This document shows positions 6,535 to 18,427 of a DNA stretch of 62,014 bases, in pieces. This DNA is from Paludibacteraceae bacterium (GTDB taxonomy: Bacteria; Bacteroidota; Bacteroidia; Bacteroidales; Paludibacteraceae), in the NCBI GenBank assembly GCA_017464025.1, contig JAFUEI010000026.1, positions 1-62,014 on the forward strand. Direction: 5' to 3'. Each line of letters starts with the position of its first letter. Positions within the stretch are counted from its first letter, which is position 1. A program made the translations under genes and the position numbers. The notes beneath the pieces were generated by a model, which was not told the DNA's origin, searched no databases, and was given only the letters and a program-made list of their open reading frames with translations.

Positions 6535-7449
6535 ATGAATCGGTATCTTAGTATATCACCAGAAGTGCAAGAGGCACTTCGCGAAGGGCGCCCTGTAGTG
6601 GCCCTCGAGTCAACCATCATCAGTCACGGGATGCCCTATCCGCAGAACGTACAAACTGCGCTACGCGTGGAGCAGACAATCCGCGACAACGGCGCCGTAC
6701 CGGCCACAATAGCCATCATAGGCGGCAGGTTGAAGGCCGGCTGCACGTCTGAGGAGATAGAATACTTAGGCAGGAAAGGACAAGCCGTGACCAAAGCCTC
6801 GCGCCGCGACCTGCCGGTGCTGACAGCCCGCAAGGCAGACGGTGCCACCACCGTGACGACGACCATGATGATAGCCGCGATGGCGGGCATACAGGTCTTC
6901 GCTACGGGCGGAATAGGCGGGGTGCACCGCGGCGCCGCCACCACGATGGATATCTCTGCCGACTTAGAAGAGCTGGCCCAGACACAGGTGATAGTAATCT
7001 GTGCAGGAGCGAAATCGATACTCGACCTCGGTCTGACGTTAGAATATTTAGAGACCAAAGGCGTACCCGTAATCGGCTATCAGACCGACGAGCTGCCAGC
7101 CTTCTACACCCGCCACAGCGGTTTCGGGGTGGACTACCGCATAGACAGTCCCGAAGAGCTGGCTGCCGCGTTCCACGTGAAGAGAGAACTCGGACTGAAA
7201 GGCGGCATGCTGGTGACCAACCCTATCCCTGAGGAATACTCAATGCCTGCGGATATCATCAACGCCGCCATCGAGGAGGCCCTCCGGCAGGCGGAAGAGC
7301 AAGGCATTCACGGCAAGCAGACCACCCCCTTCCTGTTGGCCAAAGTAAAAGAGCTGACAGGAGGCGACAGCCTGAGCGCCAACATAGAGTTAGTGCTGAA
7401 CAACGCACGCCTTGCCGCCCGCACCGCCGCCGCCCTCTGCCGCCTATAG
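6535..7449 (+). CDS. psuG: Pseudouridine-5'-phosphate glycosidase
   Basis: PsuG/IndA family enzyme of 304 residues, the usual length. It cleaves the C-glycosidic bond of pseudouridine 5'-phosphate. Diagnostic segments are ALESTIISHGMPYPQN near residue 24, GRLKAG, the glycine-rich FATGGIGGVHRGA and CAGAKSILDLGLTLEYLET. Together with the kinase in front it forms the two-step pseudouridine degradation route. The stop codon lies inside a small GC-rich inverted repeat (CCGCC/GGCGG) without a clear T-run, and a new promoter follows for the next gene. Confidence 0.95.
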   Translation: MNRYLSISPEVQEALREGRPVVALESTIISHGMPYPQNVQTALRVEQTIRDNGAVPATIAIIGGRLKAGCTSEEIEYLGRKGQAVTKASRRDLPVLTARKADGATTVTTTMMIAAMAGIQVFATGGIGGVHRGAATTMDISADLEELAQTQVIVICAGAKSILDLGLTLEYLETKGVPVIGYQTDELPAFYTRHSGFGVDYRIDSPEELAAAFHVKRELGLKGGMLVTNPIPEEYSMPADIINAAIEEALRQAEEQGIHGKQTTPFLLAKVKELTGGDSLSANIELVLNNARLAARTAAALCRL

Positions 7450-7493
7450 GGCGGACACTCTGACGGGAAAAGAACAACACAGCCTGACTTTTT

Positions 7494-7607
7494 GACCGAA
7501 AATGTTGCTTGCAGCAAGCAGAAAACCTATACTTTTGCAGAAACTTCCGACCCAAACAACAAGCGCCATGGAACCTAAGACTTTCAGTGACCGAAAATGT
7601 TATTTGC
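7494..7607 (+). promoter_or_regulatory. Promoter of the TPR/AraC regulator with two copies of a candidate operator
   Basis: -7 TACTTTTG at 7530-7537, with a TTG-type -33 element at 7505-7507 or 7509-7511. A 19-base motif, GACCGAAAATGTTGCTTGC (7494-7512), overlaps the -33 region. A second copy, GACCGAAAATGTTATTTGC (7589-7607), lies inside the first codons of the gene. A third related copy lies at 9604-9622, before the downstream surface-protein promoter. Operator function is inferred. Confidence 0.5.
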
Positions 7608-9310
7608 CGATACGCCATCTGCTTGCAGCAGTTGCACTCGTTGTGTTGTCCGCTCCGGCGGGTTATAGTGCCGCCACCGTCACGCCTGTGGATTCGGTTT
7701 TAGCCGTATTCAACAATCGTCCGAACGCCAAGAGCGGCAATGCCTTTTTCCGGCTGCTTGACGCAGAAGGCTTCACCGATGAGCCCATCAGTCTGCCCGA
7801 TGGCGCGTCGCACGACACGCTGTGCTCTACGGTATGGTACTGGGCGGCCGAATGGTACTACGACGTACAGGTATATACCGAGGCAGAGCAGTATGCACTC
7901 CGCTCGCTGCCGCTGTGCAAAGCCGCAGGCGACAAAACGATGGAAGCAGACTGCGCTTCGCTGTTAGGGCTGATATACGTGCGTTTAGGCGAGTTTGACA
8001 AAGCCGCCATCTACGCCAAGCAGTGCAACGAACTGGACATAGAGAGCGGCAACAGCGACAACATAGCCTCGTCGTACAACACGCTGGCCGGCATCTATAT
8101 GTCGATGCGGCAGCCTGACGAAGCGGAGAAATACGTCCTTGAGGCGGAGCGCTACTGCAAGGAGGCCGGCAATCAGGCCCGTTTAGCCGTGATATACGGT
8201 ATGGCCTCGGAGGTATATCAGCACAAGAAGATGCCCGAGAAGACGCTGGATTACGCCACGCGGGCATGGAAGATAGAGAAGCAGTTAGGCCGCCCCGACA
8301 AGGCCGCCGTCCGGCAGACCCAGCGTGCCGCTGCCCTGATTATGCTGGCACGGTACGACGAAGCCGAACAGTGTCTGCAGGAGGCAATCCCCGTGATAGA
8401 AGCAAGCGGCAACCTGCACTCGCTCGGCATCGCATACAACCACATGGGGGACCTGCTGTACGTACAAGGGCGCAACCGCGAGGGGGCCGACTACTACTAC
8501 AAGGCCCTTGACATCTTCACGGCCCAGCACGACCTCTACAACGAGAGCCATACGCGGAAAGGTCTGCGCGAGACGCTTCGCGGCATCAACCCTGAGGAGG
8601 CTCTGCTTCACGGCGACCGCTACGAGCACCTGCGCGACTCGATATACGACCAGCACACGAACCAGCACCTCTCGCAGTATGCCGCGCAATACGGCAACGA
8701 CATCCTGCAGCAGCTGAACCGCCGCCAGCGCATACGCTATATCTGGCTGACGGTGCTGATTGTGCTACTCTTCATGATATTCGCGCTCACAACATGGCTG
8801 CTGTACCGCCGACAGCAGAAACGGCAGGTGGAGCACTTCAACAACCTGCTGACGGAGGTGGAGAAGCTGCGCCAGCAGTCGCGCGCCCGCAAGAAATTAG
8901 AAAGCCTTCAGACACGCGAGCCGGAGGAGAAGCCGTCAGACGAGGAAAGTCCGTCAGAGGAAAGCGGGGCGGATGCCGACGACAAGCTGTTTCTGGTCCG
9001 CGTGGTGGAATTAGTGAAAAAAGGCATGCCACGCGGGGATTTCAGCGTGGAACTACTGGCAGACGCCCTGCACATCAGCGTGAGCACCTTCCGCCGGCGT
9101 ATGCTCAACGCCACCGGCGATTCGCCCAAGAACTTCATCCTCGCCATCCAGATGGAGAAAGCCACGGAGCTGCTGATGCAGCAACCCGCCCTCTCCATCG
9201 GCGACATAGCTTTCAGCTGCGGCTTTGCGGAAGCCGGCAGCTTCACGCGCACTTTCCACCGTTTCTACGGCCTTACCCCGACCCAGTACCGCGAGCAACA
9301 GAAAGCATAA
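7568..9310 (+). CDS. Membrane-spanning TPR sensor with AraC-type DNA-binding domain
   Basis: Predicted one-component transmembrane regulator, 580 residues. Order of parts: N-terminal hydrophobic segment (HLLAAVALVVLSAPAGYSAA, about 17-36); tetratricopeptide-type helical repeats (about 60-350, for example YAKQCNELDIESGNSDNIAS); one strong membrane helix (WLTVLIVLLFMIFALTTWLL, about 390-410); a charged, Glu/Ser-rich linker; and an AraC/XylS HTH domain (FSVELLADALHISVSTFRRR near 488 and a second helix pair ending GLTPTQYREQ). The TPR part should face the periplasm and the HTH the cytoplasm. ATG 7568 was chosen because the promoter lies upstream at 7530 and excludes the earlier in-frame ATG. It probably controls the surface-protein genes that follow. 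Confidence 0.82.
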   Translation: MEPKTFSDRKCYLPIRHLLAAVALVVLSAPAGYSAATVTPVDSVLAVFNNRPNAKSGNAFFRLLDAEGFTDEPISLPDGASHDTLCSTVWYWAAEWYYDVQVYTEAEQYALRSLPLCKAAGDKTMEADCASLLGLIYVRLGEFDKAAIYAKQCNELDIESGNSDNIASSYNTLAGIYMSMRQPDEAEKYVLEAERYCKEAGNQARLAVIYGMASEVYQHKKMPEKTLDYATRAWKIEKQLGRPDKAAVRQTQRAAALIMLARYDEAEQCLQEAIPVIEASGNLHSLGIAYNHMGDLLYVQGRNREGADYYYKALDIFTAQHDLYNESHTRKGLRETLRGINPEEALLHGDRYEHLRDSIYDQHTNQHLSQYAAQYGNDILQQLNRRQRIRYIWLTVLIVLLFMIFALTTWLLYRRQQKRQVEHFNNLLTEVEKLRQQSRARKKLESLQTREPEEKPSDEESPSEESGADADDKLFLVRVVELVKKGMPRGDFSVELLADALHISVSTFRRRMLNATGDSPKNFILAIQMEKATELLMQQPALSIGDIAFSCGFAEAGSFTRTFHRFYGLTPTQYREQQKA

Positions 9311-9482
9311 CCGGCGCTGAGGATGCGAAAACGCGTCCTCAACGCCCGATTGTCCGAAGCCAGAAAATTGGTAAACTCCGGACAAATTCTTCACACGGGC
9401 TTCCCATTACGAACACCCTATCTTCTCCCCACACCCGTTTCATGCAACAGACAGAAAATGAAGAAGATGGATTTTTACCAAT

Positions 9483-9516
9483 AAAAAAGCGCCTCGGTTT
9501 GCCCGCAAGAGAGGCG
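9483..9516 (-). terminator. Terminator-like hairpin read on the minus strand
   Basis: Read on the minus strand: CGCCTC, an inner TTGC/GCAA hairpin, GAGGCG, then a run of six T. No minus-strand gene ends here, so it could stop an antisense or small RNA made from the region at 9.5-9.9 kb. Confidence 0.4.
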
Positions 9517-9603
9517 GTCATGAAGAAGAGAAAGTGCTGAAGAAAAGGAGGTTGCCGACTTTTCTTCACCGAAGGGGCGGAGCGCATGCACGAGCGGAAA
9601 CGT

Positions 9604-9679
9604 GAACGAAAATGTTGGGTGCATAGAAGAAAATTGAACGAAAAAGTTTAATAGGAAGTATATATACGCCGTATCTTTG
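9604..9679 (+). promoter_or_regulatory. Promoter of the surface-protein genes with upstream candidate operator
   Basis: -7 TATCTTTG (9672-9679) with a degenerate -33 TTTA (9647-9650), spacer 21. The motif GAACGAAAATGTTGGGTGC (9604-9622) lies about 25 bases upstream of the -33 element and matches the two copies at the regulator gene. That position suits an activator site. Confidence 0.5.
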
Positions 9680-9758
9680 CATTCGGAAAAGAAGAGGCCG
9701 AACGGAAAAAAAGTAAAAATTAAAAATTAAAAGAACGGATGAGAGGGCGATGAGGGGA

Positions 9759-9826
9759 AGGACCAACTGAGCTATTCTATAGGACTAACAGAAGATATCC
9801 AATCATATAGGACCAACTGAAGCTAT
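9759..9826 (+). repeat. Direct repeats in the leader of the LRR gene
   Basis: AGGACCAACTGA-GCTAT at 9759-9775 recurs as AGGACCAACTGAAGCTAT at 9809-9826, exactly 50 bases apart. A weaker copy, AGGACTAACA, lies between them at 9781. All are in the predicted untranslated leader. Confidence 0.7.
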
Positions 9827-9899
9827 CGATTATATAACCAAGACCCGTGAAGGTGTAAGAGCGGGAGCAGAGGGATTCTGCTAATACAAAATAAAAATT

Positions 9900-11420
9900 A
9901 TGAAGAGAGTATTACTTTGTGTTGTCATGGCGGCAATGATGATGCCGGCCATGGCGGAATTGGCGAGCAGCGGCAAGCACGGCACCTGCGACTGGACATT
10001 TGACAGTGCGACCGGCTTGTTGACCATCAGCAGTTCGTCAGACGCCCCCTGGAACCTACAGGGGACAGAGCGTCAGGGAGAACTGAAAATAGGCAATATG
10101 CTGCAGTCACCTTTCGCTGCAAAAGATGAAATACGGGAGGTAATGATCGAGGAGAGCGTATTTGAGATTGGGACAGGCGCCTTCATGGGCTGTAGGAATC
10201 TGAAGAAAATCACTTTCCCTTCCACCATCGGTGTGATTGGCTTTTCTTCCGACAGTGAGTCCGAGGACATTTTGTATCAACTGCCGTGGTTTGCCTGCAC
10301 GGGATTGGAGACCCTTGTCTTCAAAACCAAATATTCACCGGACCTATGGAACGGCTTATCGGAGAGAGAAACGATGGTAGAGAGATGGGGACTGGAAGAC
10401 CCGTCGAAGGTGAATCTGCAGCTTTACGACGAGAGCATAAAGAACTTTGTGGAATCCGGCTGGGGTGTGTTCCATATCACGTCGCTGCCTGCTGTGGCAG
10501 AAGGCAAATTCGGAGCAAATGATGCCTTCAGTTGGAAAGTCTCGGGCAATGGCAAGCTGACGGTTTCGGGGAACGGAGCGATGCCCGACTTTGAGACGAT
10601 AGATAAACAGCCTTGGAACAGCTATATCAGCAAGATTACGGAGATAGTAGTAGCAGAAGGTATCACTCATGTGGGATCTGCGGCCTTTGCTTTCTGCGGC
10701 GAAGCAGAATCCGCTTATCTGCCAGCGACATTGAAATCCATCGGCGAGAATGCCTTCAATATAACCCCCAAACTGACAGAGATAACCTGTGCCTCCATAT
10801 CGGTACCGACCTTAGGCAAGTATGCCCTACCGACGCTGAACGACGGGCATCGCTATATCTTCGTATGGTCTTATATGGAGAGCAGTTTCGAAGCCGACAG
10901 CGAATGGAACAAGCACACCATCGTTGCCTTCGGTGCACAGCAGACAGAGGTGTTCTACACGGATGTTGAGGTGGAGTCCTTGGGTGAGAACATACTGTAT
11001 ATCACTTGGCCGGAAGTGGCGGGTGCCGTTGAGTACGTGATAACGCTCACTTCGGAAGACGGCACGGTGGAATACGAAATCACCTTCGGCAAAGACGGGA
11101 AGGTGACATCCTATGTAAAGAAGAAAGCTCCGAGCCGCTTGCCGCAATATACAGTTGAGGAAACGATTGACGGCTTCGGGCTGACCCTCAACGGATTGGA
11201 GAGTGGCAAGAAGTACAACGTGACGGTTGTGGCGAAAGACGAGACCAAGGCGATAGCGACTTACAAGAAGACCGTATCGACGGTCAGCAATGTGACGACC
11301 GGCATAGATGAAATCGGGCAGTCGCGAGTTGGAAACGCACAGAAAGTGCTCATAGACGGCAAGGTGTTGATTCTGCGCGACGGCAAGGCTTATAACGTCT
11401 TGGGCGCGGAGATGCGATAA
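9900..11420 (+). CDS. Exported BspA-type leucine-rich-repeat protein with C-terminal tag
   Basis: Predicted exported protein of 506 residues. Signal peptide MKRVLLCVVMAAMMMPAMA; then two BspA/LRR_5-like modules, each opening with a beta-rich segment (CDWTFDSATGLLTIS; FSWKVSGNGKLTVSGNGAMPD) and continuing as repeats such as VFEIGTGAFMGCRNLKKITF and VGSAAFAFCG; a fibronectin-III-like domain (about 355-455); and a C-terminal tag (KVLILRDGKAYNVLGAEMR). The same kind of tag ends the next two proteins. BspA-type LRR proteins often act in adhesion or host contact; that role is only inferred here. No lipobox cysteine is present. Confidence 0.8.
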   Translation: MKRVLLCVVMAAMMMPAMAELASSGKHGTCDWTFDSATGLLTISSSSDAPWNLQGTERQGELKIGNMLQSPFAAKDEIREVMIEESVFEIGTGAFMGCRNLKKITFPSTIGVIGFSSDSESEDILYQLPWFACTGLETLVFKTKYSPDLWNGLSERETMVERWGLEDPSKVNLQLYDESIKNFVESGWGVFHITSLPAVAEGKFGANDAFSWKVSGNGKLTVSGNGAMPDFETIDKQPWNSYISKITEIVVAEGITHVGSAAFAFCGEAESAYLPATLKSIGENAFNITPKLTEITCASISVPTLGKYALPTLNDGHRYIFVWSYMESSFEADSEWNKHTIVAFGAQQTEVFYTDVEVESLGENILYITWPEVAGAVEYVITLTSEDGTVEYEITFGKDGKVTSYVKKKAPSRLPQYTVEETIDGFGLTLNGLESGKKYNVTVVAKDETKAIATYKKTVSTVSNVTTGIDEIGQSRVGNAQKVLIDGKVLILRDGKAYNVLGAEMR

Positions 11421-11508
11421 GGTCTTTTTCCGGAGGAGCCGAACCGGATATTCCTGAGGGCACGGATAATCCGGATGTTCCGGAAATCCGGAAGAAAACC
11501 AGCACAGG

Positions 11509-11534
11509 CCCTGCGGGATTGGTTTCCCGCAGGG
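11509..11534 (+). terminator. Hairpin after the LRR gene
   Basis: Perfect 9-bp stem CCCTGCGGG (11509-11517) / CCCGCAGGG (11526-11534) with an 8-base loop and no T-run, so it may attenuate rather than stop transcription. The sequence GCAGGGTTACAAC at its 3' edge (11529-11541) is repeated at 11562-11574, beside a second small hairpin CTCTC/GAGAG. Confidence 0.5.
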
Positions 11535-11608
11535 TTACAACAAAAATAGACTCTCTTGAGAGCAGGGTTACAACGAAATGACTGTTAACCATATAAAATA
11601 AGTACATT

Positions 11609-14600
11609 ATGAAAAAACATCTTCTTTTAATGATGGCCATGCTGTGTTATGCGGCAGTAAGTATGACGGCCTCGGACAGTATTCCAGTGCCACGTTACAT
11701 CACCAACTTCAAGCTGGACTTGGACAAAGGGACAATCAGTTTTACTGATACATATCGGCCTGATTTATACGCAACTCAAAGTAGGGATTATACTGTTTAT
11801 CTAATAGCAAGGAGTTGTGACTTCACGCCGGAGAATCGTTTCTCGACCTACAAAACATTCAATGGAGAGATGGTTTACTGCTACGATAATTTAAAAAACA
11901 ATTATGAATCGCGCATTGTAGGTAGCAGGAGTTGGAATCCTCGTGATCTTGGAATAGATAGTGATGTTATTACGGTTGATGTGAGCAGTCTTATCCGGCA
12001 GAGTTATGAGCATCTTTATCCTTTGGCAGGTGTCACTTTCATAGTGGAGCCGCATTATATGAAGCCTACAGGAAAAGGTATATCTACACCATATAGTTAC
12101 TATACGAATGATTATTATGATAATACACAGTCTTACCTGATAAATTATTATGAGTATGACCTGCCTTATACCCGACTTTTCGATGTCAATGTGCCGGAGT
12201 CGGTCAATTACGGCGAAGTGTTGCAAATCAATGCCAAACTATGCCGCAGTATGGGAGATTTAACCGAGTACTATATTCAACTCAGACACGACAATACACA
12301 ATGGGTATATGTAAAACGATTGGGCTTGCCTGCGGAAAACGGCAAAGTAAATGTGCCTATAAGCTACTCTAAGGTATATGATGTTATAGGCTACAAACAT
12401 GCATATTATCGTTTGAGTTCTTTCGTAAAGGGAGAGTATGAATGTAATGGAAAGAAAGAGTTTCATTGGGAGTATGTTACTGATGTAAAGAAAGTTGATA
12501 TTTATTTCCCGTGTGTGGTAGAAGGCGGCGAGCCGGAAATGTATATGGCGGATGAGAAGGTTGTGTTGCCTGCTGCCCCCGACTGCCAGGAGTATGTGGT
12601 TGAGAGCGCGCTTCCTGTGGTGCTGAAAAAGACTAACGGACAAACAAGTTTTGCGATGCCTGCTGCGCCTGTCAATGTATCGCTCAAACAGTCGGAGTAT
12701 AAGGTGAAGTTCCTCAATGCTGATTATACACTGCTTTCGGAGCAGACAGTTGTCTGCGGTGAGGATGCAATGGCTCCTGCTGACCCGACCATCGCGGGCA
12801 TGACTTTTAATGGCTGGAACAAAGATTTCACTAATGTGCATAAAGATATGACCGTGATGGCATTGTATGACATGGGTGATGACTATTTCTTCTACGACAT
12901 ACTGACGGAGCACAAGAGCGAATACAGTTATGAAGGCTTTGCGGGGAGCGAGAAGCGTGCGATGATGGGTGACTCGCTCAGCTTCGACCTCGAGCTACGC
13001 ACACCGGCCGATGCCACCGTCAGATACCAGCGGGGACTGAAAGACAGCGAGGGGAACTGGAAATGGAACGACCCGATAAAGATAGGTACCTACAATGCGA
13101 CGGAAGCCGACGGCGAGTCGAGGCACTATCCGCTGCAGGTGGCCGTGGCCTACGAATACGGCAACAAGATGTCGCTGCGCTACGGGGAGGCCTTCCGGTA
13201 CAACGTATATAGTGCAGGAACCACGATATTGTCGGAGCCCTACGAGTTTGACGTGTATTACGAGATGGGGATAAAGAGCCTGATAGACGACCCGAATGAC
13301 CCGTCGCTTGCCGCCGACCTGTACACCTCGAACAAGCAGGGAGAACAGTCGTGGGGGAGCAACTTCAGTATTCCGGCACGATATAACGACACGGTGACAG
13401 TGGAACTGAAGAACGGAAGCGCCGGCTGCCTGAATTTCGCCCGCACCAACAAACCAAGTTACTCACTCACCACCGGCATCAGCGGGAACGGGAAAGCCTA
13501 CTTTATCTGCCCGGGTGAAGAGGAGACCGTGAAAGTGACGACCGGCAAGTATGTGCTGCTGTTTGACGGTGCCTACCCAATAAAGCAATATGACTTCACG
13601 GCACAGGGGTTAGGCAAATACAATGCTTATTATGCGGAAGTTGTGGACTGCGGAGGCAAGATAAAGAACATGCCCACTACGCCGGAAATGAACAACAGCA
13701 TTTTCCTGGGCTGGAAGAACGAGAGCTATGACAAGTATGACGATGACGCTTATTTGAACGTGCCTTCTATAGGCGGGACAGTGCTCACTTTCACAGCACA
13801 GTGGGAGGACATTCCGACACCGGTATATTACACCGTGCGTTTCCTTGACAAAGAGGGGAATGAGATAGCGGGTTCGAAGCAGACCGTATTGGAAGGCAGC
13901 AACGCGACAGCTCCTGCCGCCCCCGAGGTGGAAGGCTTTGTGTTTGTCGGTTGGGACAAGCCGTACACCAATATTACAGCCGACGTAAACATCCAAGCAC
14001 AATACGTAGCAGAGACCTCCATTCACACGGTGACATATCAGAATATAGACGGCACCACGTTGTTCACGGAGCAAGTGCTTGACGGTCAGGCGGCCAAAGG
14101 CTACATCATGTATCACAAGGGGGGCACCTTCGTCGGCTGGATGAACACGGAAACGCTGCAGATGGAAGACCTGCAGAACATCACCTCCGACCTCACCGTC
14201 AGACCCGTATTCCAGCTATACACCTATTCGGTAAGATTCTTCGACTGGAACATGATGCAGATAGGCATCACCCAGGAAGTGGAATACGGCAAGTCCGCGA
14301 CAGCGCCGGAGAATGTGCCAGCTATAGAAGGATATACGTTTACCGGCTGGGACAAGGACTTCTCCCACGTGACGGAGGACATGGATATTGTGGCGCAATA
14401 CAAGCCGAGCGCACCGACACCGAAAACGTACAGGGTTACGCTGGTGTCATCAGACAAAGGGGAGATCATGCTTGCCGAGGAGAATATCGACCTTGATGCG
14501 GTACCGGAAAACACCATCCTGCACCTGACGGCCATGCCATACGACGAGTACATATTCGTCAGATGGTCGGACGACGAGACCGAGAATCCGCGGGAGGTTA

Positions 14601-14770
14601 CCGTAGTAAGCGATATGGAGTTCAGTGCAGTATATGAACTGAAGAGTGACGGAACCGAAGAGATTGCTGCGGGGACAAGCCGGCCGCTGAAAGTAATCGT
14701 CAACGGCGAGATGCGAATACTGCTGCCTGACGGAAGGCAACTGAACATCCTCGGAACGGAGACAAAATAA
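11609..14770 (+). CDS. Large exported InlB/Flg_new-repeat protein, paralogue A
   Basis: Exported protein of 1053 residues with signal peptide MKKHLLLMMAMLCYAAVSMTA. An unrecognised N-terminal region (about 25-360) precedes one InlB-type repeat (about 363-425, ending TFNGWNKDFTNVHKDMTVMA). A large middle domain with MGDDYFFYDI and RAMMGDSLSF follows. Then come three more repeats (about 741-800, 805-870, 873-935; each with the G[FY].F.GW...F..V..D pattern), a divergent repeat ending RWSDDETENP, and the C-terminal tag (RILLPDGRQLNILGTETK). Related repeats occur in Listeria internalin B and many surface proteins. The first 0.9 kb of the gene is visibly AT-richer than the rest. Host or surface binding is inferred. 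Confidence 0.8.
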   Translation: MKKHLLLMMAMLCYAAVSMTASDSIPVPRYITNFKLDLDKGTISFTDTYRPDLYATQSRDYTVYLIARSCDFTPENRFSTYKTFNGEMVYCYDNLKNNYESRIVGSRSWNPRDLGIDSDVITVDVSSLIRQSYEHLYPLAGVTFIVEPHYMKPTGKGISTPYSYYTNDYYDNTQSYLINYYEYDLPYTRLFDVNVPESVNYGEVLQINAKLCRSMGDLTEYYIQLRHDNTQWVYVKRLGLPAENGKVNVPISYSKVYDVIGYKHAYYRLSSFVKGEYECNGKKEFHWEYVTDVKKVDIYFPCVVEGGEPEMYMADEKVVLPAAPDCQEYVVESALPVVLKKTNGQTSFAMPAAPVNVSLKQSEYKVKFLNADYTLLSEQTVVCGEDAMAPADPTIAGMTFNGWNKDFTNVHKDMTVMALYDMGDDYFFYDILTEHKSEYSYEGFAGSEKRAMMGDSLSFDLELRTPADATVRYQRGLKDSEGNWKWNDPIKIGTYNATEADGESRHYPLQVAVAYEYGNKMSLRYGEAFRYNVYSAGTTILSEPYEFDVYYEMGIKSLIDDPNDPSLAADLYTSNKQGEQSWGSNFSIPARYNDTVTVELKNGSAGCLNFARTNKPSYSLTTGISGNGKAYFICPGEEETVKVTTGKYVLLFDGAYPIKQYDFTAQGLGKYNAYYAEVVDCGGKIKNMPTTPEMNNSIFLGWKNESYDKYDDDAYLNVPSIGGTVLTFTAQWEDIPTPVYYTVRFLDKEGNEIAGSKQTVLEGSNATAPAAPEVEGFVFVGWDKPYTNITADVNIQAQYVAETSIHTVTYQNIDGTTLFTEQVLDGQAAKGYIMYHKGGTFVGWMNTETLQMEDLQNITSDLTVRPVFQLYTYSVRFFDWNMMQIGITQEVEYGKSATAPENVPAIEGYTFTGWDKDFSHVTEDMDIVAQYKPSAPTPKTYRVTLVSSDKGEIMLAEENIDLDAVPENTILHLTAMPYDEYIFVRWSDDETENPREVTVVSDMEFSAVYELKSDGTEEIAAGTSRPLKVIVNGEMRILLPDGRQLNILGTETK

Positions 14771-14782
14771 CGGAAGGCAACT
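14730..14782 (+). repeat. 13-bp direct repeat at the end of paralogue A
   Basis: ACGGAAGGCAACT occurs in the last codons (14730-14742) and again just behind the stop codon (14770-14782), 40 bases apart. Confidence 0.8.
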
Positions 14783-14815
14783 AACGAGAGTTCGAAATAA
14801 CTAAAACCAAGAGAT

Positions 14816-17800
14816 ATGAAGAAGTATTGGCTTTTGTTGGCGGCAGCGATAGCGGCTGTGACAAGTATGGCGGCGGAAAAGATTACCGAGGTGGACAAAG
14901 TGCCTTGGGAGAAGTTGACCAATGTCATTACATTCGATGAAGAAACAAGCACGTTGAGTTTTTATGACAAATACCGTCAAGATGAGACCATAAAGCGCAT
15001 CTACACGATAGGATTCTACCACCGCGACAAAACAGACAGCAACGGGAACGACAGAAGAAACAGCATCCTCAAAGTAGAGCCATCAGGCGGCGGTGATGCC
15101 GTGTATATTTACGGCGTGAAACAGGGGGCGAATTACTGTATTGAAACCAGAGTGAGAGAGCAGGGTGTGCCCTTAGAGAAAGTCGTCAAAACCGGTTATG
15201 CCGACGGCAGAACGCTCCGTACTATCAATATAAAGGATGAGATAGCAGCCTGTATAAAAAAAGGATATTTACAACTGCGCATTGTAATCATGGGACAGGA
15301 AGAGACGAGTGACGGAGAGATACTATCGTATGAGGATACAGGGAAACGGAAGCAATACTTCGGCTCGCATCTGAACAACTATATTGATGTAGATTTGAAC
15401 TATAACAGGTTCAACACCTTGGCCCTATTCTGCGAAAACATTGCGTATCATGGTTCTGATTTTGAGATTGAAGCCATGATACAAGGCTTCGGTCCTACCA
15501 ATTATTACCTTCAGCGCAGCGAAGACAAATTCATGTGGTGGACCATAGAATCGGGCAAAATATCCCAAAACCATTCAAGAGAAGGCCAATCGATTCTCTT
15601 CAAGCTTCCGTTCAAAGAGAACGGGTATCCCTCGGTTTATTACTACCGTCTGATAGCCCAGGATGTGAATACCGGTATTCGGGACACAACATCAACAGAG
15701 AGCGTCAAATATGTATATAACTGTTATCATTACAACGGTCTGAAATATTTGAGAGAAGCAGGAGAGACCTACACGCTGCCGAAACCAAGCGACTGCAGAA
15801 AGTACAAAGTGATCAGCGACTTCCCCGTACAACGAAAGGTAGTTGGCGACTATATAGAGTTTACGCAGCCGGCATGCGATGTTGAGATACGAGAAGATAC
15901 GCTGTATCATTATGTACGTTTTCTTGACAAGGACCATAAGGTGCTGAAAACAGAGATCGTGGAATGCGGTTCGGACGCGACTCCTCCGGATGCTCCTGAG
16001 GTGACGGGTTATACCTTCCGCGAATGGAGCGGCGACGTGACCAATGTGCACAGCGACCTGTCGGTGAAAGCCCTTTATGACATGGGTGACGACTATTGGT
16101 TCTACGACTACATGTCGCGGCACAAGAACGAGCGCTATTATGTGTCGGGCTTTACGGGGGACAAGCACCGTGCGATGATGGGTGATACGTTAGAGTTCAC
16201 GGCCGAGGTTCGCACTCCTGCCGAATCGACACTGACCTACGAGACGGCCACCCGCAACGGGGAGGGGGAATGGCAATGGTCGGGCGAGATCATGGCCGGC
16301 ACCTTTACAGCCGCCGATGCGAAGCGGGGCGAGTCGATAGCGTACAAAAAAGCTGTTGCCGTGGCCTACGACTATAGTAACGAGATAGCCTTCCGCAACG
16401 GTTTCGCCTTCCGGTTCTGCCTGAACAGTGCAGGCACGAAGATATACTCCGACCTGTATGAGTTTGAGGTGTATTACCCGATAACGGTGAAGAGCAAGAT
16501 TGAGCAAAGCGACGGCACGATGGAGGCTGTGTTTGCTACAAACAGCGACGGCGATGTGGCAATGGGTGCAGAGTGTGTGATACCAGCGCGGTACAAGGAC
16601 CAGATCCGGATAACGCGTCTGAACAACAATGCGGGGGGCTGCCTGCGTTTCAGCCGCGTAAACAAGCCGTCGGCGACGTTGGATGACGGATTGGACGAGA
16701 AAGGAGCCGCCTGGTTTGCCTGTCCGGGAGAGAAAGAGACTGTGACGGTGGAGGCAAGCAAGAAGGTGGTGTGGTTCAGCGGCACGAAAGAGACGCAGGC
16801 CTACGACTTCAGCGCCGAGGGGCTGGGCAAATATCAGCACGCCTACTACGCGGAGGTGGTGAACTGCGGCGGCAGCATCTCGAAGATGCCCGAAGACCCC
16901 GAATGGGAGGATCGCGTCTTCCTCGGCTGGAAAAACGACACGTGGGGCGAGTATGCAGACAATGCCTACCTCAGCGTGCCCGCTATAGAAGACAACCAGC
17001 TGGAGTTCACCGCCCAATGGGAAGATCTGCCGGACCCCGTATATTACACCGTCAACTTCTATGAGCAAGACGGCCAGACGCTGATAGAGAGCAAGCAGGT
17101 TATGGAAGGGGAGAATGCGGTGCCGCCTATAGGCAGCAAGATACCGACCATAGCGGGGTATCATTTTGCCGGATGGGACAAGTCGTATGACATGGTGACC
17201 GAAGACCTGGACATCAAGGCTCTGTATGGCGAGGACGGCAAGGAATGGACCGTTACTTACAAGAATTGGGACGATGAGGTGTTAGGGACGGAGATCGTGG
17301 AAGACGGTTGTGCCGCGATAGCGAACATAAAACCGACCCGCGAGCATTATGTGTTTGCCGGGTGGGATGAGGACCTGAGCCATATCAGTTCTGACATCAC
17401 GACCAAAGCACAGTTTACGGAAGAGCTGTTCACCGTAAGCTTCATGGTGGACGGCGTGGTGACCTACAGTGTGCAAGCGTTGTACGGTTTTGACGCCACC
17501 ACCATCACCTACAAGCCCAACGGCACGCCCACTACGCCTCAAAAAGAGCCGACAGCGACAACCGTCTATACGTTCAAGGGCTGGGTACCGGAAGTGACCT
17601 CCGTGACGGAGGATGTGACCGTGGAAGCGGTGTTTGAAGAGAGCGTCCGCACCTACGAGGTAGTATTCCAGAACTGGGACTACACGGAGATAGACAAGCA
17701 GCAGGTGGAGTACGGCAAGGCAGCCACAGCCCCCGCGACCCCGACACGCAGCGGCTACAGCTTCACCGGCTGGGACCGCACATTCGACGAGATCAAGACC

Positions 17801-18214
17801 GACCTTGTGGTGACAGCCCAGTTTGAGAAGAAGAAGGCATCGAAACCGTCCACGACAACCTATAGCGTGAAACTGAAGGCCGTGAACGGGAAGATTACCG
17901 TGGAAGAGGACTATTATGACTTAGAGTACGTGCCGGAGGGGACCGAGCTTCACCTGAAGGCTGTCGCCGACAAGGGCTATGCGTTCAAGCAGTGGTCGGA
18001 CGGCGTGAGCACCGCCTCGCGCACTGTGGTCATCACGAAAGACATCACCTATACCGCCGAATTCGAGCAGATAAAGGATGGGATTGAGGACGTAGAAAGT
18101 CAACAGCCGAAAGCAGAACGTCCTATCAAAATCCTTGACCCTGCCACCGGCGAAATCCGCATCGTTCTGCCCGACGGCAAGATATACAATCTGCTTGGAG
18201 CAGAGGTGAAGTAG
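14816..18214 (+). CDS. Large exported InlB/Flg_new-repeat protein, paralogue B
   Basis: Exported protein of 1132 residues, a full-length paralogue of the preceding gene. Signal peptide MKKYWLLLAAAIAAVTSMAA. An N-terminal region is followed by a first repeat (about 365-430) and the shared middle domain (MGDDYWFYDYMSRHKNERYY, RAMMGDTLEF, GLGKYQHAYYAEVVNCGG). Then come four InlB-type repeats starting near 743, 811, 872 and 947, a divergent repeat near 1015 (QWSDGVSTASRTVVI) and the tag (IRIVLPDGKIYNLLGAEVK). It has one more repeat than paralogue A, which accounts for most of the length difference. It lies 45 bases behind paralogue A and ends at a strong terminator, so the surface genes likely form one unit. 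Confidence 0.8.
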   Translation: MKKYWLLLAAAIAAVTSMAAEKITEVDKVPWEKLTNVITFDEETSTLSFYDKYRQDETIKRIYTIGFYHRDKTDSNGNDRRNSILKVEPSGGGDAVYIYGVKQGANYCIETRVREQGVPLEKVVKTGYADGRTLRTINIKDEIAACIKKGYLQLRIVIMGQEETSDGEILSYEDTGKRKQYFGSHLNNYIDVDLNYNRFNTLALFCENIAYHGSDFEIEAMIQGFGPTNYYLQRSEDKFMWWTIESGKISQNHSREGQSILFKLPFKENGYPSVYYYRLIAQDVNTGIRDTTSTESVKYVYNCYHYNGLKYLREAGETYTLPKPSDCRKYKVISDFPVQRKVVGDYIEFTQPACDVEIREDTLYHYVRFLDKDHKVLKTEIVECGSDATPPDAPEVTGYTFREWSGDVTNVHSDLSVKALYDMGDDYWFYDYMSRHKNERYYVSGFTGDKHRAMMGDTLEFTAEVRTPAESTLTYETATRNGEGEWQWSGEIMAGTFTAADAKRGESIAYKKAVAVAYDYSNEIAFRNGFAFRFCLNSAGTKIYSDLYEFEVYYPITVKSKIEQSDGTMEAVFATNSDGDVAMGAECVIPARYKDQIRITRLNNNAGGCLRFSRVNKPSATLDDGLDEKGAAWFACPGEKETVTVEASKKVVWFSGTKETQAYDFSAEGLGKYQHAYYAEVVNCGGSISKMPEDPEWEDRVFLGWKNDTWGEYADNAYLSVPAIEDNQLEFTAQWEDLPDPVYYTVNFYEQDGQTLIESKQVMEGENAVPPIGSKIPTIAGYHFAGWDKSYDMVTEDLDIKALYGEDGKEWTVTYKNWDDEVLGTEIVEDGCAAIANIKPTREHYVFAGWDEDLSHISSDITTKAQFTEELFTVSFMVDGVVTYSVQALYGFDATTITYKPNGTPTTPQKEPTATTVYTFKGWVPEVTSVTEDVTVEAVFEESVRTYEVVFQNWDYTEIDKQQVEYGKAATAPATPTRSGYSFTGWDRTFDEIKTDLVVTAQFEKKKASKPSTTTYSVKLKAVNGKITVEEDYYDLEYVPEGTELHLKAVADKGYAFKQWSDGVSTASRTVVITKDITYTAEFEQIKDGIEDVESQQPKAERPIKILDPATGEIRIVLPDGKIYNLLGAEVK

Positions 18215-18379
18215 GAAGGGGCAGGCATGGATGTCCATGAGACGAGACGAGCAATCAGAATCAGCCTACTTGTTCAGACACGGATTCGGTCTGACGACCG
18301 ATGTCGGGATTCTATCCCGACGCAACAGAAGAAAGCATCAGTGACGGTTGCCAGACGCCAGAGAGAAGGCAAACAGGAA

Positions 18380-18427
18380 AGCGCTTGCGGCAGGAGAGAT
18401 GCCGCAAGCGCTTTTGCTCTTTTTTAC
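18380..18427 (+). terminator. Strong rho-independent terminator of the surface-protein locus
   Basis: Perfect 13-bp stem AGCGCTTGCGGCA (18380-18392) / TGCCGCAAGCGCT (18400-18412), 7-base loop, followed by a T-rich tail. Confidence 0.9.

Follow-up and report, generated by a model that had tools for sequence, protein, structure and literature searches.

How cells of the Bacteroidales control the genes for their large surface proteins is a question for which, to our knowledge, few regulators are available as an answer, and it is raised by a locus in the genome of a Paludibacteraceae bacterium (GCA_017464025.1; 2.1 Mb in 71 contigs). The stretch analyzed, called here the window, is contig 1 of this genome (JAFUEI010000026.1, positions 1 to 62,014 of the forward strand, 62,014 nucleotides), in which a gene for a predicted membrane regulator is followed by three genes for secreted proteins. 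A preliminary description, based on the sequence alone, had seen in these four genes a self-contained surface-protein locus. The predictions reported below point to a regulator that is probably a membrane one-component protein activating the adjacent surface-protein genes, and that would be part of a reusable module. The earlier interpretation was partly supported, being right in outline and too narrow: the locus does have its regulator, its surface proteins and a shared operator, but it is one instance of a module that recurs rather than a unique system.

The regulator and its three secreted neighbours

The regulator gene (7568..9310, + strand) encodes 580 amino acids from the ATG at 7568, which is very probably the start rather than 7502, because the promoter box TACTTTTG (7530) falls within the longer frame. 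Its Pfam matches to TPR_12 (79 bits) and HTH_18 (81.2 bits, cut-off 33.6) are both far above the cut-off, the latter placing the helix-turn-helix (HTH) domain in the AraC/XylS type. Since residues 18-36 (a signal peptide) and residues 394-412 (a membrane helix, about 8747-8803, followed by YRRQQKRQ) form hydrophobic stretches, the TPRs are predicted to be periplasmic and the HTH (9056-9298) cytoplasmic, in such a way that the membrane topology proposed before stands, with "outside" read as the periplasm. In an 18-member alignment, 28 of the 34 invariant columns precede the membrane helix and lie in the sensor part. Among the best 60 of 74 matches to solved structures, the sensor was closest in sequence to consensus TPR proteins, and the HTH end to the hybrid two-component system (HTCS) protein 12aw (3.3e-29) and the response regulator 6swi. 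No histidine kinase or receiver domain was present among the 13 Pfam families matched by the regulator at E 0.01.

The three following genes, all on the + strand, were recognized from the start as coding for a leucine-rich-repeat protein and two InlB-repeat paralogues, and the domain searches agree. LRR (9900..11420, 506 aa) is a secreted protein of the BspA type with an LRR_5 match of 63.1 bits, and INL1 (11609..14770, 1053 aa) and its paralogue INL2 (14816..18214, 1132 aa) are secreted proteins with Flg_new repeats (90.8 and 86.9 bits), that is, InlB B-repeats of the Listeria-Bacteroides type. The Protein Data Bank matches of INL1 and INL2 were also internalin B repeats; the resemblance is to InlB-type repeats only and covers part of each protein.

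The three proteins end in a common C-terminal tag. The last 48 residues of LRR (11274..11417, + strand) begin with GID and continue as a KxLxxGxxxIxxxGKxYNxxGxxxK-type tag, those of INL2 (18068..18211, + strand) begin with GIE, and in INL1 (14624..14767, + strand) GTE replaces GI[DE]. The tag seen in the preliminary description is therefore real in the three proteins but does not mark the locus, as a profile of it matched 39 places in the same genome, 36 of them at E 1e-3 or better (C-terminal position unverified), and a role as a mark specific to the four genes was rejected. A canonical type IX sorting domain was rejected too: neither Pfam nor NCBIfam, searched with 20 tags up to E 10, listed a sorting-domain family, and hhalign of the tag against 10 canonical tails from the loci gave a probability of 3 and E 0.014 over 10 columns. 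The type IX machinery is present, with SprA_N in the same genome and the PorU sortase in 29 of the 31 genomes searched, this one included. For Prevotella intermedia, PMC11969387 describes type IX signals that are short and carry a GI cleavage motif. The window tags resemble them in being about 45 residues long, in standing at the end of secreted surface proteins, in having, in two of the three, a GI-type start and in carrying YNxxG and G..I elements; the order of the elements differs, YNxxG being at the very end in the window. We consider that the tag is probably a short type IX signal and that type IX export of the tagged proteins is likely. With its 36 genomic places and without a Pfam or NCBIfam model, it is possibly a signal of this kind that has not been described.

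A shared operator and its promoters

A motif near the start of the regulator had been said to recur before the promoter of its neighbours, and the search of the whole genome bore this out. The box TTGAMCGAAAATGTTG has 6 matches at up to 2 mismatches in the 2.1 Mb genome, 4 of which lie within the locus (7492, 7587, 9602 and 9634), and the reversed pattern used as a control had none. At the target promoter, a distal repeat GTGAACGAAAATGTTG (9602..9617) and a proximal one TTGAACGAAAAAGTTT (9634..9649) are spaced by 32 bp, and the proximal repeat starts 38 bp before the -7 box TATCTTTG (9672..9679), all on the + strand. The box TTGACCGAAAATGTTG upstream of the regulator (7492..7507, + strand) likewise begins 38 bp before a -7 box, TACTTTTG (7530..7537, + strand), and has a degenerate copy (9/16 identical) 32 bp further upstream, at 7460. 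An extra box just within the coding start of the regulator (7587..7602, + strand) may serve negative autoregulation. The two -7 boxes have the form TAnnTTTG, which we take to be the Bacteroidales type. LRR, INL1 and INL2 look like a single operon transcribed from the 9672 promoter, because no TAnnTTTG box was found in the gaps preceding INL1 (188 bp) or INL2 (45 bp). The strong terminator noted earlier at the end of the set was located at 18377..18415 (+ strand, 16 pairs and a T-rich tail); it is the strongest among 12 pattern matches of the region, a number not above that of shuffled sequence (mean 11.0).

The same arrangement was detected in relatives. Several orthologues have box pairs with periods of 30-32 bp before themselves or before the next gene, and L122 and L135 have a single clear copy each. 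In 151 genomes of the genus, TTGAMCGAAAATGTTG at up to 1 mismatch had 31 matches against 2 for the control, 13 of them within 300 bp of a listed member of the regulator family. When a matrix built from 12 sites of 8 loci was tested on the remaining loci, scores of at least 13 were reached in 8/52 held-out upstreams of next genes and in 2/413 controls (p 5.5e-7); on regulator upstreams the test was weaker (6/62 at this score, rank test p 0.017). A motif-free test was also carried out, in which a 12-base repeat with a period of 20-22 or 30-32 and at least 9/12 matches had to be anchored 38 bp before TAnnTTTG. Of 178 promoters of regulators or targets, 59 had such a repeat, as did 6 of 208 controls (p 1.7e-16), these promoters being the ones with a TAnnTTTG box among 276 and 575 distinct upstreams, respectively. 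The excess peaks at an offset of 31-43 bp and fades to both sides. The idea that the boxes are a general promoter element was rejected, as control promoters were mostly without them. De novo word counts recovered mostly the -7 box itself, and of three clade motifs tried, TTGTCC... (clade 5) fitted well and the other two poorly.

The spacing of the repeats follows the regulator. On a FastTree tree of 138 regulators (46 with short spacing of 20-22 bp, 24 with long spacing and 68 unlabelled), the spacing class changes 4 times, compared with a mean of 19.9 and a minimum of 16 in 100 shuffles. Moreover, in a paralogous module of the same genome (G000:C58), both the regulator gene and that of its tagged neighbour are preceded by TTGTCC repeats with a spacing of 20-21 bp. 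Because this operator differs, and its tandem pattern has one match genome-wide, in the promoter of the tagged neighbour, one cell carries two modules with separate operators. The paralogous regulator (locus L073) adjoins SprA/Sov, a type IX gene, and the genes after the regulator encode one tagged protein and two whose sorting tails look canonical. In another locus, L265, a relative of 189 aa (7060-7629, G078:C20) has only the membrane helix and the HTH, without the sensor; an exact copy of the operator box precedes its gene, and two tagged genes follow.

From these data we propose that the regulator would be a membrane-spanning one-component transcription factor, whose periplasmic TPR domain would sense a ligand, a peptide or an envelope protein being the likeliest class. 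Its cytoplasmic AraC-type domain would bind, as a dimer, the two direct repeats, whose 32-bp spacing amounts to three helical turns, in such a way that the bound repeats would end beside the -33 region, and so activate the LRR-INL1-INL2 operon and, through a weaker copy of the box, the gene of the regulator itself. The three proteins would then be exported, probably through type IX secretion, to be displayed at the cell surface. The arrangement is a reusable module, in which paralogues and relatives couple such a regulator to different surface proteins and to predicted operators of their own.

Recurrence in relatives and rival explanations

Relatives of the regulator were collected from the genome_contigs collection, from which the best 80 of 207 were kept. 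Those with names are mostly rumen and gut metagenome-assembled genomes (MAGs) labelled Paludibacteraceae, Bacteroidales, Prevotella/Prevotellaceae, Muribaculaceae, Porphyromonadaceae or Bacteroidaceae; one family member comes from a genome without a MAG label, Prevotella sp. ne3005. A profile of the family matched at least 48/151 genomes of the genus at 1e-30, fragments included, and at least 4/247 genomes drawn across the order at 1e-60, its own genome counted, both being lower bounds with the best 9 or 5 candidates scored per genome. The distribution of the family looks patchy, not universal.

The preliminary description had proposed to look for the four-gene arrangement in other Bacteroidales. 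The full set was found in a Paludibacteraceae MAG from roe deer rumen (L124), in identical order and with identities of 70% for the regulator, 59% for LRR, 67% for INL1 and 57% for INL2 (cut by the end of the locus); it is the one relative in which the LRR gene, with both INL genes, was found beside such a regulator. What recurs is the kind of neighbour, as the 62-71% orthologues of the regulator adjoin large secreted proteins and not unrelated genes, the outcome that had been named beforehand as damaging.

This was quantified in two sets. The named one consisted of the window and 80 loci, with 82 regulators, or 71 after dereplication at 90%. The next gene was on the strand of the regulator in 60/64 cases, and a crude rule predicted a signal peptide in 45 of these 60, compared with 191/515 other genes and 23/69 upstream genes. 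A simple pattern of the tag was present in 12/57 next genes against 15/475 others, and within the Paludibacteraceae-like subset in 12/18 against 15/130. The genus set comprised the surroundings of 70 regulators, the two of this genome included, and left out five loci that had been fetched for other reasons or carried partial relatives. In 60 of these, the next gene was complete, on the same strand and 120 aa or longer; in 61, one or more of the next three genes were complete and on the same strand, and 9 were not assessable. The next gene was tagged in 39 of the 60, as opposed to 7/170 other complete genes of the loci (Fisher 9e-22), and in 48 of the 61 the first or second same-strand gene carried a tag; the profile came from 20 tails of such loci, which favours the count, and the background was scored with the identical profile.

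Where the loci carry other family labels, the cargo changes. The first or second next gene encodes an LRR_5/dockerin protein in L157, an LRR_4/dockerin/FGE-sulfatase protein in L156 and a Big_2/dockerin protein in L163, and small next proteins resemble lipoproteins by eye. Dockerin_1 is at the C-terminus of the secreted protein in L157 and L163 and internal in L156.

Several observations weigh against the reading proposed above. On the side of the neighbours, 15 of the 60 next genes in the named set have no predicted signal peptide, those of L143, L190 and L191 look cytoplasmic, neither of the first two genes is tagged for 13/61 genus regulators, a further 9/70 stand outside the tagged-neighbour assessment, and the 20 tails behind the tag profile are all from loci of this kind. 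A close relative, L128 (a 62-64% orthologue), is followed by a gene with another tail and has no box before itself or before that gene. On the side of the promoters, 98/276 upstreams have no TAnnTTTG box, and 119 of the 178 promoters tested have no anchored repeat at the threshold. Because the offset of -38 and the period classes were picked after viewing some of the loci later tested, the motif-free test is not fully independent, and the tree result is inflated by the co-inheritance of regulators and promoters in orthologous loci and by identical loci in both sets.

The regulator could also bind the boxes and repress the operon until a ligand releases it, or tether the DNA to the membrane with no strong switching by a ligand. 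The extra box inside its coding start (7587) and the inverted copies directly before the start codon in the orthologues L125 and L126 agree with this, as boxes at the coding start or just before the start codon are typical of repression. A site that immediately precedes the -7 box, at an almost constant distance, is, by contrast, the position of a class II activator, and this is where the tandem repeat lies at both promoters of the locus and in many relatives, so that we regard both alternatives as unlikely. The chance that the operator belongs to another protein, such as an HTCS or an unlinked AraC protein, with the TPR-AraC gene as a mere neighbour, is smaller. The AraC-type HTH is matched 11 times in the genome, 18 of the 31 matches of the box in the genus are not beside regulators of the TPR-AraC family, and HTCS sites are direct repeats as well, according to PMC3878776. 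However, the box is concentrated at the loci of the TPR-AraC regulator itself, in the genome and in the genus, and its sequence and spacing vary with the clade of the adjacent regulator, which makes a foreign owner very improbable.

A neighbourhood arisen by chance, with large tagged proteins so common in the genus that the regulator stands beside some of them, is hardly credible. The 36 tag places of the genome might suggest it, but among roughly 1,700 genes (number estimated) they amount to about 2 percent, and the rate within the loci (7/170) is also far from the 39/60 of the next genes; together with the signal-peptide counts, this led us to discard it.

Known systems and minor features

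The activator proposed here is most likely a membrane one-component protein of the SusR kind, in which the DNA-binding domain resembles that of HTCS and the TPR sensor that of FimS. According to PMC3878776, SusR is a membrane regulator of glycan use that has a periplasmic sensor and a DNA-binding domain not significantly similar to any known one, with repeats spaced by 67 or 77 bp. Regulators of this kind in Bacteroides share with the predicted regulator of the window the inner-membrane one-component organization, with periplasmic sensing and cytoplasmic DNA binding, as well as direct-repeat operators and adjoining surface proteins as putative targets. The window regulator differs in its AraC HTH, its TPR sensor and its spacing of 32 bp, and has neither the SusR-type domain nor the 67/77 bp distance. 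HTCS proteins also have a periplasmic sensor, a membrane helix and a C-terminal AraC HTH, and the same paper gives their operators as direct repeats averaging 21 bp. A period of 20-22 bp is shared by the short-spacing members of our family, 46 of the 70 labelled ones, whereas the period is 32 bp in the window and, for the most part, 30-32 bp in its close relatives; a TPR sensor and the lack of a Pfam-detected histidine kinase or receiver domain further separate the window regulator from HTCS.

FimS of Porphyromonas gingivalis, as reported in PMC11053733, senses through periplasmic TPRs and controls fimbriae, with its signal still open and a peptide ligand proposed. The predicted tie between a periplasmic TPR sensor and surface adhesins is thus common to FimS/FimR and the window, although FimS is a histidine kinase that acts via FimR and here the sensor and the DNA-binding domain are in one protein. 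The FimS model scores 38.7 bits on part of the regulator (model cut-off 600). Among the papers listed by a literature search, with subscription journals largely outside its reach, none appeared to describe a TPR-membrane-AraC regulator together with surface proteins, and the census in PMC1183210 leaves out AraC-type one-component regulators. The family offers many natural sets of regulator, predicted operator and cargo in gut and rumen bacteria, and would let the choice of repeat spacing by the AraC-type domain (two against three helical turns) be compared.

A more speculative reading, to which we give a small chance, is that the TPR domain might read its own cargo, the tag or another part of LRR or INL proteins not yet exported, so that display would be self-metered and the pair of regulator and cargo would form an insulated, duplicable cassette with its own operator and feedback. 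It is worth considering because of PorA, a protein bearing a type IX signal whose input into regulation is described in PMC7712824, where no direct contact with the sensor was detected. Relatives with other tails speak against sensing of the cargo tag as a general rule, and the tag is unlikely as the ligand of all family regulators, given the dockerin or lipoprotein-like next genes of loci with other family labels.

Other proteins accompany the regulators in some loci. Proteins of 116-132 aa resembling a lone AraC HTH are beside or near the full regulator in L085/L137, L162, L192, L199 and L242. Genes for ATPase-like proteins, presumably of the AAA/DUF4143 kind, recur in L070, L073, L075, L078, L083, L087 and L234, at times between the regulator and its cargo. 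In the window, the four genes are preceded by a PfkB kinase gene (5624) and an Indigoidine_A/PsuG-like gene (6535), and the terminator is followed by a phosphohexomutase gene (18543). No Rfam element was found in the locus up to E 1; a possible hairpin, CCCGYGAAGGTGTAAGAGYGGG, lies near the start of LRR (9844-9865) and is retained in the leader of L124.

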